Source: Wielerella bovis (GTDB taxonomy: Bacteria > Pseudomonadota > Gammaproteobacteria > Burkholderiales > Neisseriaceae). From it: a stretch of DNA of 64,000 nt. The translations under genes were made by a program, and so were the position numbers. Within the stretch, counting starts at the first letter, position 1; each line of letters opens with the position of its first letter. The notes beneath the pieces were generated by a model. The model was not told where the DNA came from. It worked only from the letters and a program-made list of their open reading frames with translations, and did not search any database. The DNA is taken from contig NZ_CP092361.1 in the NCBI RefSeq assembly GCF_022354465.1, positions 806,001 to 870,000 of the forward strand. Direction: 5' to 3'. Below are positions 186-7,504 of this stretch, one piece after another.

Positions 186-1577
186 ATGAAACCCGACCTA
201 AACCAAATTCTCTGTAAAGACCGCCATTTTCTGAGAACCGCTTTCAGGCAGCCTGAAAAATTCGGTGGCATAGAAAAAGTACAACAAAAATACGCCAAAT
301 CCCACGAAATCTACCAAAAACGCCGCCAAAATCTGCCAACGCCCACTTTTGATGACAGCCTCCCTGTCCACGCCAAACGCGATGAAATTCGCGCTGCCAT
401 CGCCGCCAACCAAGTTGTGATTATTTGTGGCGAAACAGGTTCGGGCAAAACCACGCAAATTCCCAAAATCTGCTTGGAATTGGGGCGCGGCGCGGCGGGT
501 TTGATTGGACATACCCAACCACGCCGTTTGGCGGCGCGTTCGGTGGCAGAACGGATTGCGGAAGAATTGGGCAGCCCCATCGGTCAAGCGGTCGGCTACA
601 AAGTGCGCTTCAACGACCAAATTTCACGCGATTCATCAATAAAATTGATGACAGACGGCATTTTGCTTGCCGAAACACAAACCGACCGTTTTTTAACCGC
701 CTATGACACCATTATTATTGACGAAGCGCATGAACGCAGACTGAATATTGATTTTCTATTAGGCTATTTAAAACAATTACTTCCCTCTCGTCCCGACTTA
801 AAAATCATCATCACGTCCGCTACAATTGACGCGGATAGATTTTCGCAACATTTCAACAACGCACCCGTGATTGAAGTAAGTGGGCGCACTTTCCCCGTAG
901 AAATTTTGTATCGCCCCATCAATACTTTAGATGAAGACGAAGCGGAAATTGAAATCGCAGACGCAATTGTGGACGCGGCAGACGAATTGGCGCGTTTGGG
1001 CGAAGGCGATATTCTCGTTTTTTTGGCGGGCGAACGCGAAATCCGTGAAGCGGCAGAAGCCTTACGTAAATCGCCATTACGCAAAAATGACGACATTTTG
1101 CCGCTTTTTGCGCGATTATCGGCGCAAGAACAGCACAAAATCTTCCACCCAACGGGTTCGCAACGGCGCATTATTTTGGCGACCAATGTGGCGGAAACTT
1201 CGCTGACCGTGCCGCGCATTAAATATGTGATAGACACGGGTTTGGCGCGCGTCAAGCGTTATTCCGCAAGGGCAAAAGTGGAACAGTTGCACGTGGAGAA
1301 AATTTCGCAAGCGGCTGCGCGGCAGCGTTCGGGGCGATGTGGGCGCGTGGCGGCTGGCGTGGCAGTGCGTTTGTATGAAGAAAGTGATTTTAATCAAAGA
1401 CCTGCGTTTACCGACCCTGAAATCATTCGCAGCAATTTGGCGGCGGTGATTTTGCGGTTAATGGCATTGGGTTTTGGTAATATTGAAGAATTTCCGCTGT
1501 TGGATATGCCTGACCCACGCTATATCAATGACGGTTATCAGGTTTTATTGGAATTGGGCGCGATTGCGGAAGTTTGA
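186..1577 (+). CDS. hrpA: HrpA ATP-dependent RNA helicase, N-terminal half (gene split)
   Basis: This is the helicase core of the DEAH-box protein HrpA, an RNA helicase involved in mRNA processing and rescue of stalled ribosomes. Visible motifs are Walker A GETGSGKT (about residues 82-89), DEAH (179-182), SAT (211-213) and QRSGRCGR (motif VI). ATG 186 fits the family N-terminus; an upstream TTG at 153 adds eleven atypical residues. A DUS is translated near the start as FRQPE. The frame stops after ...[10 protein letters not shown], just where the family continues with the segment found at 3968 (YQLTNLGKQMAKLPIDP). Full-length HrpA is about 1300 residues, so this 463-residue product is an N-terminal part. 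Whether the two halves work together is unknown; it may be a pseudogene. Confidence 0.85.
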
Positions 1578-1655
1578 TTTTTCAGGCTGCCTGAAAATGA
1601 ACAAAACTGCCTGAAAGCCAAACAAAATAAACTTTCAGGCAGCCTACAATTAAAA

Positions 1656-2156
1656 TTAACGCACAAATTCAACAGGAAAATCAGCAATGCGTTCCAAGAA
1701 AAAATAGTAATATTTGCCATTTTCTGCAACGGGTGGGAAACCTGTGGGCGATTTGCCATTCATCACTCCCATGAGCGTGTTGTCGTCCACTTTGCGAAAA
1801 TGGTCAAAAATTGGTGCACCATCGTAAACCATTGTGGCAGAAACTTTGCCACGAAATTCAATCATCCACAGCGAGCATTCGCCGTTCATCAGTTGATTGG
1901 CGTACAACTTGCCGTCTTCGTTGTAGCACACGAGCGGCGAGCCGTCTAATTGGCTGCGAAACCATTTGCCGAACCATTTTTGTTTTTTTAATTCGGGCGT
2001 ACCCCAATGCCCTGTATCAAAGTCGCCACCTTGCCATTTGGACAAAATTTCCTCCACACCCACAGGCGGCAGTTTGTCAAAAAAATTCATTAACACGGTT
2101 TCGTCTTCAAAACGGTTTTGGGCTTTTAATTGGTCAAATTCTTGCTTTAAATTCAT
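1656..2156 (-). CDS. DUF4334 / GXWXG-domain protein
   Basis: This 166-residue soluble protein has the two-part pattern of the GXWXG and DUF4334 families: a W-x-G-G-D-F-D-T-G-H segment, WFGKWFRS, PLVCYNEDGK, then MVYDGAPIFDHFR and NTLMGVMNGK near the C-terminus. The biochemical function of the family is not established. ATG 2156 was chosen because residues before it (an in-frame extension to 2324) read through a DUS and the intergenic region. The gene is divergent from the TetR gene at 2310, and pairing with a TetR regulator suggests local control. It lies inside the block that splits hrpA. Confidence 0.75.
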   Translation of the reverse strand: MNLKQEFDQLKAQNRFEDETVLMNFFDKLPPVGVEEILSKWQGGDFDTGHWGTPELKKQKWFGKWFRSQLDGSPLVCYNEDGKLYANQLMNGECSLWMIEFRGKVSATMVYDGAPIFDHFRKVDDNTLMGVMNGKSPTGFPPVAENGKYYYFFLERIADFPVEFVR

Positions 2157-2243
2157 GATATTACTCGCTATGTGTTGTTTAAAAAGATGAGTGTAGTTTA
2201 CCCAGCTTTCAGGCAGCCTGAAACAGGCAAATTGCGCCAAACC

Positions 2244-2259
2244 GTCTGACAAAGCAGAC
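2244..2259. promoter_or_regulatory. Candidate TetR operator
   Basis: GTCTG-6-CAGAC is an inverted repeat between the divergent DUF4334 and TetR genes, a usual place for an autoregulatory operator. The arms are only five bases long, so the assignment is weak. Confidence 0.3.
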
Positions 2260-2309
2260 ATATTCAGATATAGTGTATGAATAGATTTGTAAAAATTGGA
2301 GCAAATACC

Positions 2310-2855
2310 ATGAACACGCCACAAGACCCACGCGCCGAACGTACTTTGGCGGCGATTGAAACCGCGTTTGTAGATTTAATGCAAATGCATGATTTTGAAG
2401 ACATTACCGCGCAAGCGATTATTCAACGCGCCAACATCAATCGCAATACATTTTATAAATACTATGATGGTAAACAAGGACTTGCTAACAAATTGGCAGG
2501 TAATCTGAAACGCGAATACGAACAAATGATTGCCGTGTATTTCAGCGATGATTTCCAGAAGTTGATTCACAACATCAGTCCGATGATGTTTGCCAAACGC
2601 CGCCTGATTTTGACATTGTGGCGGATTAACACGCGCAAATTACACGTTTACACTGATATGGAAAACTTGATTAAACAAGGATTTATAAAATATGCCCAAA
2701 TGCAACAAACCGGGCGCGATTGGGATTTTGCTGCCGAAATGTTCGCTAAATTGCTGCTTAATAGTGCGCGTTATTTTTGGGAACGCGACCAGCAAATTCC
2801 GATTAAACAAGTCTTTGCTGATTGGGACGCGATGTTGAATATCGCAAAACGTTGA
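2310..2855 (+). CDS. TetR/AcrR family transcriptional regulator
   Basis: This 181-residue regulator has an N-terminal TetR helix-turn-helix: RTLAAIETAFVDLM, then DFEDITAQAIIQRANINRNT, then FYKYYDGKQGL, followed by an all-helical ligand domain. ATG 2310 is preceded by GGAG with 8-base spacing; an in-frame upstream ATG at 2277 lacks a good site. It is divergent from the DUF4334 gene and probably controls it. It is part of the insertion inside hrpA. The inducer cannot be deduced. Confidence 0.88.
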   Translation: MNTPQDPRAERTLAAIETAFVDLMQMHDFEDITAQAIIQRANINRNTFYKYYDGKQGLANKLAGNLKREYEQMIAVYFSDDFQKLIHNISPMMFAKRRLILTLWRINTRKLHVYTDMENLIKQGFIKYAQMQQTGRDWDFAAEMFAKLLLNSARYFWERDQQIPIKQVFADWDAMLNIAKR

Positions 2856-2860
2856 TTTTC

Positions 2861-3300
2861 AGGCTGCCTGAAAAAAGCTGACACAATATTTAACTGTAGG
2901 TCGGGCATTGATGCCCGACGCATTTCCAATGTTTTGATTATTTTGTTTTTGTCGGGCATAAATGCCCGACCTACATATGATGAACAATCATACAAACAAT
3001 GCCGTCTGAAAAACCTTTCAGGCAGCCTGAAAAAAAGCTAACACAATATTTAACCGTAGGTCGGGTATTGATGCCCGACGCATTTCCAACATTTCACTAT
3101 TTTGTTTTTTCGGGCATGAATGCCCGACCTACATATGATGAACAATCATACAAACAATGCCGTCTGAAAACCTTTCAGGCAGCCTGAAAAAAGCTGACAC
3201 AATATTTAACCGTAGGTCGGGCATTGATGCCCGACATATTTCCAGTATTTCAATATTTTGTCGGGCATAAATGCCCGACCTACAATAATGGAGTAACCAT
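2861..3300 (+). repeat. Three tandem ~158-bp units of DUS + REP pair
   Basis: Three consecutive units begin at about 2861, 3019 and 3177. Each starts with a DUS (CAGGC-GCCTGAA), then AAGCTRACACAATATTTAA, then an inverted pair of REP palindromes (GTAGGTCGGGCATTGATGCCCGAC and its mirror) at 2896-2974, 3056-3132 and 3212-3283. The first two units end with ATGCCGTCTGAA. The third ends at the transposase start. The arrangement looks like tandem amplification next to the RAYT gene that mobilises such palindromes. Confidence 0.85.
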
Positions 3301-3826
3301 GCAATATCGCCGATTTTACCGACAAGGCGCGTTGTATTTTTTCACGGTTGTCACTTATCAACGCCGCCCGATATTGACTAATCCTGATGTAATGCCTATC
3401 TTAAAAGCAGCATTTAAAACGGTACAACAAAAATATCCGTTTAAAATTATTGCATTGGTTGTGCTGCCTGACCACTTGCATACCATTTGGCAACTGCCTG
3501 AAAATGATGCGAATTTTTCAATTCGCTGGAATCAAATCAAACGCTATGTTAGCCATCATTGCAAGCATTATGATAATTTGAACAAAACCGCCAGCGAAAT
3601 CAAAAAACGTCAAAGCAGCTTTTGGCAACAGCGTTTTTGGGAACATTGCATACGCGATGACGAAGATTTTGCCAATTGCATGGATTATATTCATTACAAC
3701 CCTGTGAAACATGGCTATGTGCAAGCTGCCAAAGATTGGCGGTTCTCCACATTTCATAAATATGTGGCACAAGATGTTTATCCTGAGGATTGGGGTGGCG
3801 TTATTCAAGATTTTGATTACGAATAA
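3299..3826 (+). CDS. REP-associated tyrosine transposase (RAYT, Y1_Tnp)
   Basis: This 175-residue Y1 transposase of the IS200/IS605-like RAYT group carries the HUH-type metal motif PDHLH (H59, H61) and the catalytic tyrosine in YIHYNPVKHG (Y130). RAYTs act on REP palindromes as single-strand endonucleases/transposases. GGAG sits 5 bases before ATG 3299. REP palindromes flank the gene on both sides (3212-3283, 3831-3854, 3892-3961), which supports the assignment. It appears intact and lies in the hrpA insertion. Confidence 0.9.
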   Translation: MQYRRFYRQGALYFFTVVTYQRRPILTNPDVMPILKAAFKTVQQKYPFKIIALVVLPDHLHTIWQLPENDANFSIRWNQIKRYVSHHCKHYDNLNKTASEIKKRQSSFWQQRFWEHCIRDDEDFANCMDYIHYNPVKHGYVQAAKDWRFSTFHKYVAQDVYPEDWGGVIQDFDYE

Positions 3827-3830
3827 TTGT

Positions 3831-3961
3831 GTCGGGCATGAATGCCCGACCTACCGATGCCGTCTGAAAAATACCAATACAACATTTAACCGTAGGTCGG
3901 TCATTTATGCCCGACACATTTTAAACATTTACTATTTGTCGGGCATCAATGCCCGACCTAC
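3831..3961 (+). repeat. REP palindromes downstream of RAYT gene
   Basis: A single REP (3831-3854, GTCGGGCATGAATGCCCGACCTAC) is followed by an AT-DUS (3857-3868) and an inverted REP pair (3892-3961). They separate the transposase gene from the second hrpA half. Confidence 0.85.
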
Positions 3962-3967
3962 AATATT

Positions 3968-6900
3968 ATGAACAATCAACAAACTATACCGTCTGAAACC
4001 CTTTCAGGCAGCCTGAAAACCAAAAAACCGCGTTACCAATTAACCAATCTCGGCAAACAAATGGCAAAACTGCCCATTGACCCGAAAATCAGCCGCATGC
4101 TGATTGCCGCGCAACAACATGATTGCGTAGCGGAAATGCTGATTATCGCGTCCGCCTTGTCCATTCAAGACCCACGCGAACGTCCGCTTGAATTGCGCGA
4201 AGCGGCAGCGAAAGCCCACGAGCGTTTTGCCGACAAACAATCAGATTTTTTGGCGTATGTGAATATTTGGGACAGTTTCCAGCGCGAGCGCGATAAGGGT
4301 TTGACCAATAAGCAATTAATCCAATGGTGCCATCAATATTTTTTGTCGCATTTGCGGATTCGGGAGTGGCGCGAATTGCACAAGCAATTGGCAGAAATTG
4401 CGGTGGAAATGGGTTTGGTGGCGAAAGAACACGCGTTCAGGCAGCCTGAAAATTTGTCCGTGTTTGAAAAAGCGCAAATTGATGAAAATGCGGACATTGC
4501 CGCGCAAGCCAAGCAAAAACAAATCCACAAAAAAAATCATCGCGCCCAAATTCAAGCGAAAAAACAAAGCACTTACGAGCAAATTCATCGTGCTTTGCTG
4601 ACGGGTTTGGTGGCGAATGTCGGCATGAAATCACCCGAAGGACACGATTATACGGGGGCGCGTGGGGCGCATTTTCATTTGTTTCCCACATCTGCGCTGT
4701 TCAAAAGCAAGCCCAAATGGGTGATGGCGGCAGAATTAACCGAAACATCAAAACTTTACGCGCGAGACGTGGCGGCAATTGACCCTGAATGGATAGAGCA
4801 GGAAGCGCGGCATTTGGTGCGTTATCATTATTTTGAGCCGCATTGGGAGCGCAAACGTGGCGAAGTGGTCGCCAGCGAGCGCGTAACCCTTTATGGTTTA
4901 ACGGTTTTGCCGCGCCGCCCGATTGCGTATGGCAAGGTTGCGCCAGCCGAAGCGCGTGAGTTGTTTATTCGTGGCGCGTTGGTGGCGCAGGATTGTGATT
5001 TGCAGGCTGTCTTTTTTACGCACAATAAAAAATTAATCAAAGAAATTATTGATTTAGAAAACAAATCGCGTAAACAAGATGTGTTGGTTGATGAAGAAGT
5101 GTTGTTTGATTTTTATGATAAAAGGCTGCCTGAAAATTATGTGCCGTCTGAAAAATCATCGCGCCAATCTCTGAATCATCAACCAATGAAACACGTAGGT
5201 CGGGCATTGATGCCCGACACGCCAGCTCTTTTGATAGAACAAAAAACCAGTGAGTTAGATACGTCAGCGTTTTTGGCTTATTTTGCTAAACATCTTTATG
5301 ATGAAGAAAATCGGCATTTGTTAGATAAACCAATATCAAAAAATATTCCTGAATATTTTTACATTTGTGCTTATTTAATTGATTTTGAAACAGAATTGTC
5401 AATGTCTGGTTTAGAAGGATTACTTTGCAATAGCACCGCCCATCATTTTAAAGATGTACATAATGCCCTTAAAATAATCAATAATCATCAAGGTGTTGAG
5501 TGTATTCAATCCATTATTGATGTATTAGCGCAAAATAATACTTCTCCTGAAACATTTGGCAATGAACAACGTGAACTTTTTGAATTATCTGAAAGTTTAC
5601 GCAAGTATTCACAACAATTATCCGATGAGATTTTTCCAACTGTTTGGGCTGATTTAGAAAAATATTTGTTGATTCAAAGAAAACAAACCACTCAGTCGGG
5701 CATGAATGCCCGACCTACGATGCCGTCTGAAAAATCCGCCAAACTTTCAGGCAGCCTGCAATCTGTCCCCTCCCCCGTCCCCAACGGGGGAGGGTTAGGG
5801 TGGGGGCAAAACGGCGCGGATAAAACAAATGCCGTTGCAGCCGAAAACACCACCCCCACCCCATCCCTTCCACGCCAGTCGGGGGAGGGGGTAGGCCGTG
5901 GCAAATCAACGCGTTCAGATAAAAATATGCCGTCTGAAAACCACAAACAAGAACAAGTAGGTCGGGCATTGATGCCCGACAATGCGAGCAACCAGTCGGG
6001 CATCAATGCCCGACCTACATTGCCCAAACCGCTTGCCGATTTACGCACTTTTGAAGCGTGGCTGAAAACCAGCGACCCCAAGTCTTTGTTTTTAAGCAAA
6101 GAAGATTTAATGCAACACGCCGCCGCGCACATCACGGAAGAGCAGTTCCCGAAATTTTGGCAAAACGCAGACGGCAAATTCAAATTGTCCTACCGTTTTG
6201 AGCCACATCATCCTTTGGACGGCGTAACGCTGACCGTGCCGCTGACCGTGTTAAACCGCATCAATCCGCACGAATTGGAATGGCTGGTGCAAGGCATGTT
6301 GCGCGAAAAACTCGCTTTGTTAATCAAAGCCTTGCCGAAACAAATCCGCCGCGTGTGTGTGCCTGTGCCTGATTTTGTAACGCAATTTTTGTTGAGCGAA
6401 CCCGACCAAAGCGCACCGATTTTGCCACAACTCGCCCATGCGATTGCCAAACACGCGGGCGATATGCGTTTGTTGGAACAGATTAATTTGGACGAATGGG
6501 CGGCTTTCAGGCTGCCTGAACATTGTTATTTTAATTTGCGCGTGGTGGACGATGGCGGTCAGGAACTCGCCAGCAGTCGCGATTTAATTCATTTACAACA
6601 ACAACTTGGACAAGTAGCAGCCGTTACCTTCCGCGACAACACGCAGGAATTTGAGCGCGACAACATTAGCGATTGGACAATCGGCACGCTGCCTGAAAGC
6701 ATTAAATTTGCGCGTGGCAAACAGCAACTGACGGGTTACTTGGCACTACAAACGCAAAAAGACGGCACGGTGTCTTTGCGCCTGTTTGACACGGCATTGG
6801 CGGCGGAACAGGCGCACCGTAAAGGCGTGATTAAATTGATTCAAATGCAATTAAAAGACCACATGAAAGATTTGAACAAGGGCATTCAGGGCTACACGCA

Positions 6901-7504
6901 GGCGGCGATGTTGCTGAAACACATTGCGCCCGATGTGTTGAAAGACGATTTGACCGCCGCGATTTGCGACCGCGCATTTATCGGCGAAGACGAATTGCCA
7001 CGCAATGAAAAAGCCTTTAAAGAACAAATTAAAAGGGCGAAAAGCAGGCTGCCTGCGGTCAAAGAAGCGGTCAGCCGTTATTTGGGCGAGATTACAGCCG
7101 CCTACACCGAATTGAACGCCAAATTGGGCAAACATCCACTTACGCCTTTGTTGCGTGAACGACTGAATGTGTTGCTGGGCGCGGGTTTTGCCAGCCGCAC
7201 GCCGTGGGCGCAATGGGCGCGTTTGCCTGTGTATTTGCGGGCGATGAGTTTGCGGGTGGACAAATACAGCGCAAATCCTGCGCGTGATATGGCGCGAGAA
7301 GCCGATATTCAGGAACTGGAAACGATGTGGGCGGAGAAAGTGGCTGGTTTGCAAAGGCAGAATTTGGCGGTTTCAGGCAGCCTGAAAGATTTTGGGTGGG
7401 ATTTGGAGGAATTGCGGGTTTCGTTGTTTGCGCAGGAGTTGAAGACGCCGAAGCCTATTTCTATCAAGCGGTTAATGAAAGAATGGGAAAATTTAGGAAA
7501 ATAA
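3968..7504 (+). CDS. hrpA: HrpA C-terminal half with an inserted DUF4375-like domain
   Basis: This 1178-residue frame continues HrpA after the helicase core: winged-helix/ratchet region (YQLTNLGKQ, SALSIQDPRERPLELREAA), OB-fold, and the DUF3418-type C-terminus (LSYRFEP, DGVTLTVPL, ending KRLMKEWENLGK). Between about residues 391 and 684 is an insertion absent from normal HrpA. It comprises a DUS, a REP palindrome (5195-5218), a roughly 155-residue domain resembling DUF4375/DMP19 (about residues 421-575), another REP (5695-5718), an AT-DUS, a G/C-rich palindromic repeat and a REP pair (5957-6018), all open in this frame. ATG 3968 has no good ribosome-binding site; ATG 4060 is an alternative. 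The gene may be split and non-functional, but the long open frame has no stop. Confidence 0.8.
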   Translation: MNNQQTIPSETLSGSLKTKKPRYQLTNLGKQMAKLPIDPKISRMLIAAQQHDCVAEMLIIASALSIQDPRERPLELREAAAKAHERFADKQSDFLAYVNIWDSFQRERDKGLTNKQLIQWCHQYFLSHLRIREWRELHKQLAEIAVEMGLVAKEHAFRQPENLSVFEKAQIDENADIAAQAKQKQIHKKNHRAQIQAKKQSTYEQIHRALLTGLVANVGMKSPEGHDYTGARGAHFHLFPTSALFKSKPKWVMAAELTETSKLYARDVAAIDPEWIEQEARHLVRYHYFEPHWERKRGEVVASERVTLYGLTVLPRRPIAYGKVAPAEARELFIRGALVAQDCDLQAVFFTHNKKLIKEIIDLENKSRKQDVLVDEEVLFDFYDKRLPENYVPSEKSSRQSLNHQPMKHVGRALMPDTPALLIEQKTSELDTSAFLAYFAKHLYDEENRHLLDKPISKNIPEYFYICAYLIDFETELSMSGLEGLLCNSTAHHFKDVHNALKIINNHQGVECIQSIIDVLAQNNTSPETFGNEQRELFELSESLRKYSQQLSDEIFPTVWADLEKYLLIQRKQTTQSGMNARPTMPSEKSAKLSGSLQSVPSPVPNGGGLGWGQNGADKTNAVAAENTTPTPSLPRQSGEGVGRGKSTRSDKNMPSENHKQEQVGRALMPDNASNQSGINARPTLPKPLADLRTFEAWLKTSDPKSLFLSKEDLMQHAAAHITEEQFPKFWQNADGKFKLSYRFEPHHPLDGVTLTVPLTVLNRINPHELEWLVQGMLREKLALLIKALPKQIRRVCVPVPDFVTQFLLSEPDQSAPILPQLAHAIAKHAGDMRLLEQINLDEWAAFRLPEHCYFNLRVVDDGGQELASSRDLIHLQQQLGQVAAVTFRDNTQEFERDNISDWTIGTLPESIKFARGKQQLTGYLALQTQKDGTVSLRLFDTALAAEQAHRKGVIKLIQMQLKDHMKDLNKGIQGYTQAAMLLKHIAPDVLKDDLTAAICDRAFIGEDELPRNEKAFKEQIKRAKSRLPAVKEAVSRYLGEITAAYTELNAKLGKHPLTPLLRERLNVLLGAGFASRTPWAQWARLPVYLRAMSLRVDKYSANPARDMAREADIQELETMWAEKVAGLQRQNLAVSGSLKDFGWDLEELRVSLFAQELKTPKPISIKRLMKEWENLGK
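5195..6018 (+). repeat. REP/GC-rich repeat block within hrpA, flanking a DUF4375-like insert
   Basis: REP palindromes lie at 5195-5218, 5695-5718 and as a pair at 5957-6018. A G/C-rich inverted repeat (CCCTCCCCC...GGGGGAGGG arms) spans 5766-5890 and resembles the element at 35153-35249. The sequence stays open in the hrpA frame, so the repeats are translated (for example VGRALMPD and SGMNARPT). The segment 5219-5694 encodes the DUF4375-like domain. Confidence 0.75.

Follow-up and report, generated by a model that had tools for sequence, protein, structure and literature searches.

Sequence comparison across the family leads us to propose, with a probability of about 70%, that the joint between the OB fold and the DUF3418 region of the helicase HrpA tolerates insertions, and that in DUS-bearing Neisseriaceae it has gathered DUS, REPs and, at times, in-frame 'domain cassettes'. 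The case that brought this joint to attention lies in Wielerella bovis, in a window of 64,000 nt (the whole stretch of DNA that was analysed), where ORF 3968-7504 on the forward strand encodes 1178 aa of the C-terminal part of HrpA and is open throughout. Pfam profiles on this ORF detected HA2_C, OB_NTP_bind, DMP19 and DUF3418 (583 bits), the DMP19 domain standing between the last two HrpA parts. The original prediction had described the host of the extra block as HrpA, which is correct for the C-terminal part; it had not mentioned that the gene is split, the helicase core having its own ORF (186-1577) and 2.4 kb containing a RAYT lying between the two. The features are as follows.

186..1577, + strand: N-terminal half of hrpA with the helicase core, an ORF of its own (NCBIfam TIGR01967, 753 bits, profile positions 7-467)
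1578..3967, no strand: 2.4-kb block splitting hrpA (site 1), with a GXWXG/DUF4334 gene, a TetR-like gene, REP pairs and a RAYT
1656-2153, - strand: GXWXG/DUF4334 gene in site 1 (profile match)
2277-2855, strand not given: TetR-like gene in site 1, identified by eye
3299..3826, + strand: RAYT, REP-associated tyrosine transposase, adjoining REPs (NF047646, 192.9 bits, cut-off 80; Pfam Y1_Tnp, 1.3e-9)
3968..7504, + strand: C-terminal part of hrpA with the inserted domain, a single open frame of 1178 aa
4583..4813, + strand: OB fold of HrpA, upstream of the insertion site (PF07717, 2.8e-19, residues 206-282)
5138..6022, + strand: insertion region at the OB part/DUF3418 joint (site 2), 885 nt, the gap between the matched flanks
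5142..5157, + strand: left DUS direct repeat TGCCGTCTGAAAAATC, present in one copy in Alysiella crassa
5195..5218, + strand: GTAG-type REP, translated VGRALMPD (repeat search and ORF translation)
5222..5692, + strand: DMP19/DUF4375-like domain of low GC (Pfam core 5360-5635; PF14300, 9.8e-7)
5695..5718, - strand: REP in inverse orientation, translated SGMNARPT (repeat search and ORF translation)
5721..5736, + strand: right DUS direct repeat, 16 bp, identical to the left one (repeat search)
about 5770..5891, + strand: GC-rich palindromic block (PSPVPNGGGLGWG...SLPRQSGEG), common to A. crassa hrpA
near 5928, strand not given: additional DUS core (repeat search)
5957..6018, + strand: REP pair (5957-5980 and 5995-6018), absent from A. 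crassa
6020..7489, + strand: DUF3418 C-terminal region, the downstream flank (PF11898, 6.6e-175)

Both halves score above the HrpA equivalog cut-off of TIGR01967 (722.75 bits), the N-terminal half with 753 bits and the C-terminal half with 750.6 bits in three stretches, the best of them at profile positions 789-1283; against PRK11131 (NF008348) each half falls below the cut-off of 1400. The HrpA chain of PDB 9ggr, presumably that of E. coli, has no joint at site 2, the flank matches stopping at residue 808 and restarting at 810. Between the HA2 and OB parts (window 4422-4567) the hrpA frame contains one more DUS; the window protein has 48 residues there, compared with 4 in 9ggr.

The prediction of some 880 stop-free bases within the C-terminal half of HrpA was confirmed: the hrpA frame of the 885-nt insert is free of stops, compared with 19 and 28 stops in the two alternative frames of the forward strand and 19, 12 and 8 in the three reverse frames. 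The order foreseen for the repeats (DUS, REP, domain, REP, DUS, G/C palindrome, REP pair) was likewise recovered, each element in its expected place. Separated by 476 nt, the REPs at 5194-5218 and 5695-5719 make up a pair of inverted arms, and REPs also flank the RAYT (3299-3826) on both sides, as in a RAYT/GTAG REP system. REP cores with no more than two mismatches numbered 27 in 464 kb of the window genome (20 sampled stretches and the window); four of them lie inside frames of at least 250 aa, all at site 2. The insert resembles the RPE type in that palindromic repeats stand in a conserved ORF, keep its frame and are absent from A. crassa hrpA. An intein was rejected, no Hint-type family appearing in the Pfam tables for window 5138-6022 or for the whole ORF.

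Comparison with A. crassa DSM 2578, which matches the hrpA region of the window at 91-97% and carries hrpA in one piece, without the 2.4-kb block of site 1, supplied the presence/absence check that the original prediction had proposed, and A. crassa turned out to have the empty site, with a single DUS. The DMP19 block is absent there and the GC-rich block is present; the junction has one TGCCGTCTGAAAAATC compared with two in the window, and the extra DNA amounts to 579 bp or 193 codons (5142-5720). Since two 16-bp DUS copies flank the segment and A. crassa has one, the most economical reading is that the DMP19-like segment represents one insertion at the 16-bp DUS. The approximately 881 extra bases that had been predicted do exist, but a single insertion of 881 bp was rejected, as the stretch 5721-5891, which includes the GC-rich block, is 95% identical between the window and A. 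crassa and is older than the DMP19 block. A similar in-frame block to the GC-rich one of hrpA (5770-5891) was observed in mfd of the window genome and of G066.

The predicted DUF4375-like nature of the domain was borne out by profile search, PF14300 scoring 29.8 bits (9.8e-7) when 5222-5692 is taken by itself and 25.5 bits when the entire ORF is searched, compared with a cut-off of 25; the domain is a remote member of the PF14300 (DMP19/DUF4375) family. Three Variovorax plasmids have matches of 26% identity, which carry the annotation DUF4375. The domain found only itself in the 83 family genomes and in 369 genomes of the class, and it had no relatives in phages, no match in the NCBIfam search, and no relation to a profile of five Neisseriaceae homologues by hhalign; a PDB match to a design construct (E 0.57) was taken as chance. 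PF14300 itself occurs in 50 of the 83 Neisseriaceae genomes, as other proteins. Residues G45, G46 and Q49 (first-sequence numbering), invariant in the five Neisseriaceae homologues, are not all kept in the domain, whose aligned stretch, SGLEGL, retains one of the two glycines and lacks the Q. The original prediction had pointed out that DMP19 of Neisseria is a DNA mimic of this family; because the domain is remote and lacks residues invariant in the five homologues, a transfer of that mimicry to it is unsupported. A standalone DMP19 homologue is encoded elsewhere in the genome of the window (L003, 1435-1884), just upstream of a truA-like gene identified by eye. The HrpA-borne domain has a pI of 4.88 and a charge of -10.5, the resident homologue a pI of 4.07 and a charge of -20.2, and a single-sequence AlphaFold model of the domain reached a pLDDT of 41. 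Its GC is 0.308 and its GC3 0.185, compared with 0.47-0.50 and 0.50-0.58 in the HrpA parts, and this GC3 suggests a recent arrival. The domain could be a transient passenger; as to its role, our guess would be an appendage through which a nucleic-acid translocase binds proteins or is regulated.

Both hrpA flanks were sought in 83 genomes of the family; 79 matched each flank, and 76 loci were paired and measured, the remainder having neither flank (G004, G039, G074), one flank (G042, G040) or a partial flank (G007, G058). The length of the HrpA joint ranges from -9 to 1923 nt over the 76 loci and is divisible by three in 75 of them. In G051, the sole exception, the match to DUF3418 is broken over frames, as it also is in G031, in which the joint itself is in frame; outside the 76, the joints of G007 and G058 are -6 and 33 nt by coordinates, both divisible by three. 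No stop interrupts the hrpA frame in the 49 joints of at least 90 nt (21,257 nt), compared with 217 and 333 stops in the two alternative forward frames. Many of these longer joints read as translated repeats, and most enlarged joints hold no recognised domain. GNAT A (PF00583, 8.8e-11) was found in the joints of two loci (G012, G021), GNAT B (PF13673, 9.5e-19) in seven (G003, G012, G015, G021, G027, G029, G035), and domain C, of about 84 residues and without a Pfam match, in six (G003, G012, G015, G027, G031, G035). Seven GNAT B matches have 69-100% identity, all inside HrpA joints, and the remaining 12 have at most 48%, except for a 41-residue fragment at 59%. Since the same joint holds other in-frame, repeat-bounded domains in other species, in-frame domain gain at the HrpA joint looks like a recurring pattern, which bears out the proposal that repeat-bounded insertion in frame could be a way to build fusions. 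Outside the family, a query spanning site 2 matched 216 of the 369 class genomes (G000, the window genome, included), once in each of 215 genomes and twice in G000; among the matches listed, all except those of G000 run from query residue 1-2 to at least 247, unbroken at site 2.

Other observations touch the same sequences. In two genomes (G020:C17:162246-162452, G037:C59:103905-104198) the DNA immediately following hrpA contains a partial match to DUF3418 with a stop, which gives the impression of a duplicated gene end. A weak match to domain C (1.3e-6; G053:C1:1380041-1380232) lies upstream of an Rhs-like frame identified by eye, which hints at a link to polymorphic toxins.

DUS are closely associated with enlarged joints in HrpA. 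In counts that ignore kinship among the genomes, DUS are present in all 52 HrpA joints longer than 33 nt when seven motifs are used, in 51 of the 52 with the five best-known motifs (G038 loses its only DUS), and in none of the 24 joints of 33 nt or less. The density of DUS per kb is 9.0 in the joints (seven motifs; 7.9 with five) compared with 1.25 (1.19) elsewhere in the loci. All 19 loci with fewer than 0.3 DUS per kb in the flanks have joints of at most 33 nt, and short joints despite DUS-bearing flanks occur in G001 (1.69 per kb, 30 nt), G077 and G082. One genome, G041 (L084, genus group g5), provides a natural control, with no DUS core in the hrpA locus examined and a joint of 33 nt.

Selection was estimated as dN/dS by NG86 from pairs that share genomes and are thus not independent. 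The values are 0.15 for GNAT A (one pair), 0.13-0.74 for GNAT B (10 pairs, the value of 0.74 resting on seven changes in one pair) and 0.07-0.32 for domain C (eight pairs), so that all compared pairs of A, B and C stay below 1; the hrpA flanks give 0.03-0.26, and the window compared with A. crassa gives 0.07-0.10 for the N, C1 and C2 parts. Between G012 and G003, dS changes along the gene from 0.58 in C1 and 0.78 in B to 0.16 in C and 0.15 in C2, which is consistent with recombination within the gene. Some of these hrpA genes may be decaying, since hrpA is split in the window genome and DUF3418 is broken in G051 and G031. From the frame and the selection statistics we infer that the fused product would be translated.

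An insertion site similar to the HrpA joint also exists in Mfd, for which 78 of the 83 genomes gave matches and 69 of 70 loci were measured. The Mfd joint is 12-825 nt long and divisible by three in all 69 loci, and the 22 joints of at least 90 nt contain no stop in frame, compared with 59 and 101 in the other forward frames. Mfd of the window genome has a 195-nt joint with a GC-rich block resembling that of HrpA, and Mfd of G032 (L196, transcription-repair coupling factor) carries an 825-nt in-frame insert with a PT-HINT (intein-like) domain (2e-13) and no DUS. The association with DUS is weaker in Mfd than in HrpA: DUS are present in 22 of the 28 Mfd joints longer than 33 nt and in 9 of the 41 shorter ones, the joint with PT-HINT being among the six long joints without a DUS. 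Relatives of domain C occur in Mfd of G012 (49%, 3.1e-14), more weakly in Mfd of G003 (38%, 5.0e-6), and in RbbA of the window genome (43%, 7.7e-15; L163, G000:C1:2175764-2175994), where the relative sits between the ABC and membrane parts beside DUS-like peptides.

The split of hrpA seen in the window recurs elsewhere. Site 1 was measured in 73 of the 76 loci; in 33 of them the gene is interrupted at one and the same position, by about 1.0-4.2 kb, and in 40 it is contiguous, one of these (G067) having 93 extra nt at site 1. The contents of site 1 vary between loci. Ten of its ORFs, hand-picked as likely defence genes and so giving no rate of such genes, match type II methyltransferase/restriction enzymes, DarT/DarG, a reverse transcriptase, and GmrSD-type and TIR-type proteins. 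Site 1 is thus a possible defence hot spot in a helicase gene whose halves stay conserved. A relative of the window RAYT lies between the hrpA halves in three of the 33 split loci (G000, G012, G019). The low dN/dS between the split genomes G003, G015, G027 and G035 (0.05-0.08 for N, 0.03-0.07 for C1 and 0.11-0.16 for C2) suggests that a two-part HrpA works. Site 1 resembles the minimal mobile element loci of Neisseria, in which conserved flanks surround exchangeable contents moved by transformation; site 2 differs from them, domains being swapped there inside one ORF rather than genes between genes.

We propose that a stop-less, low-GC DMP19-like segment with inverted REPs would have been inserted at a DUS. 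The DNA would have arrived by DUS-guided transformation, DUS/REP microhomology would have served to join it, whether or not the RAYT nearby took part, and selection keeping DUF3418 attached would then have purged out-of-frame and stop-bearing events. The product would be one polypeptide, in which the repeats serve as linkers and the DMP19-like domain is a tethered extra module. It is possible, and we put it forward tentatively, that the joints of HrpA, Mfd and RbbA are standing capture sites in competent Neisseriaceae, where DUS/REP linkers let transformation deliver, swap and recombine domains (DMP19-like, GNAT A/B, C, PT-HINT); such capture sites would be a bacterial counterpart of exon shuffling, without splicing.

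The domains might instead be neutral passengers, repeats and coding debris arriving randomly at an insertion-tolerant joint where in-frame events survive and the domain stays idle. The preponderance of enlarged joints with repeats only, the wide differences in joint length among relatives, and a GC-poor DMP19-like domain found in one genome all fit such idleness. Nevertheless, idle passengers should drift toward a dN/dS of 1, whereas GNAT A/B and domain C inside HrpA show 0.07-0.35, apart from one pair (0.74), and GNAT A, B and C recur in 2, 7 and 6 loci; we therefore regard neutrality as possible but doubtful. Movement by the RAYT, in which the inverted REPs and the DMP19-like segment would be a REPIN with cargo and the DUS incidental, could draw on the RAYT (3299-3826), from which the first REP lies about 1.4 kb downstream, and on the inverted REPs 476 nt apart. 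It is unlikely, however, as the ends of the block match the 16-bp DUS repeat and not the REPs, and a RAYT relative is found in only three of the 33 split loci, whereas DUS are in 51-52 of the 52 large HrpA joints.

Decay of the gene itself would provide another account, hrpA being a pseudogene split by 2.4 kb whose open frame is a leftover. The two ORFs of hrpA and the DUF3418 broken over frames in G031 and G051 would agree with it, and hrpA is not known to be essential in E. coli. We consider a pseudogene improbable, given that 33 of 73 family loci are split at the same place, that 1178 codons are still open, and that the split genomes keep the low dN/dS values given above. Expression of the DMP19-like block as its own gene from an internal start is very improbable: in-frame ATGs exist at 5186 and 5210, but no obvious ribosome-binding site was seen by eye before either, and no stop occurs before that of hrpA at 7504, so that such a product would carry DUF3418. 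The absence of a stop led us to reject an internal gene as the main reading and agrees with the original view that the domain is not a separate gene.

Insertion at the DUS, with the frame of hrpA kept, can be set beside known systems. REPs that stand in frame inside genes, among them genes for repair and for RNA helicases, have been described in the part of PMC3733652 considered here, and Rickettsia palindromic elements (RPEs) likewise stand in frame in genes, as part of PMC10969869 describes. The RPEs and the GTAG/CGTC REPs resemble our case in being palindromes in frame in conserved genes, many of them for repair and some for RNA helicases, that are read as peptide (PMC3733652, PMC10969869, each in part). 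In those systems it is the repeat alone that is inserted, the largest cases measuring 43-82 aa (PMC3733652, in part), whereas in HrpA whole foreign domains lie between the repeats, DUS take part, and different species make use of one and the same joint. The words hrpA and mfd were searched for in PMC3733652 and did not occur. The DUS of Neisseriaceae are the same repeats as ours, and intragenic DUS in permissive regions are known (PMC3630211, in part); the portion of that paper considered here does not describe a DUS bordering a domain inserted into a protein joint. DMP19 of Neisseria acts as a dimer on NHTF and as a monomer on HU, according to part of PMC5722371; it has the PF14300 family name in common with the HrpA domain, which differs in being remote, devoid of the conserved residues and fused inside HrpA. 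The hrpA of PMC2527323, as far as that source was covered, refers to two-partner secretion and not to the helicase. Titles and abstract openings of the open-licence literature, among the matches listed, contain no domain insertion in hrpA or mfd of Neisseriaceae and no split hrpA. In-frame REPs, RPEs and intragenic DUS are thus already known, and repeat-bounded insertion of whole domains in HrpA or Mfd was not found in the literature listed.

The way in which bacteria acquire new domain architectures usually has to be deduced when the event is long past. In the present case, the site, its empty state, the flanking repeats and the alternative cargos can be compared across related species, and the uptake signal at the edges of the insert in the window makes the link between transformation and domain gain directly testable. 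For annotation, entries for HrpA, Mfd and RbbA in Neisseriaceae can conceal unrelated domains, and HrpA is often two genes. For the biology of the family, the DNA-uptake repeats may have a second use in the making of new fusion proteins.
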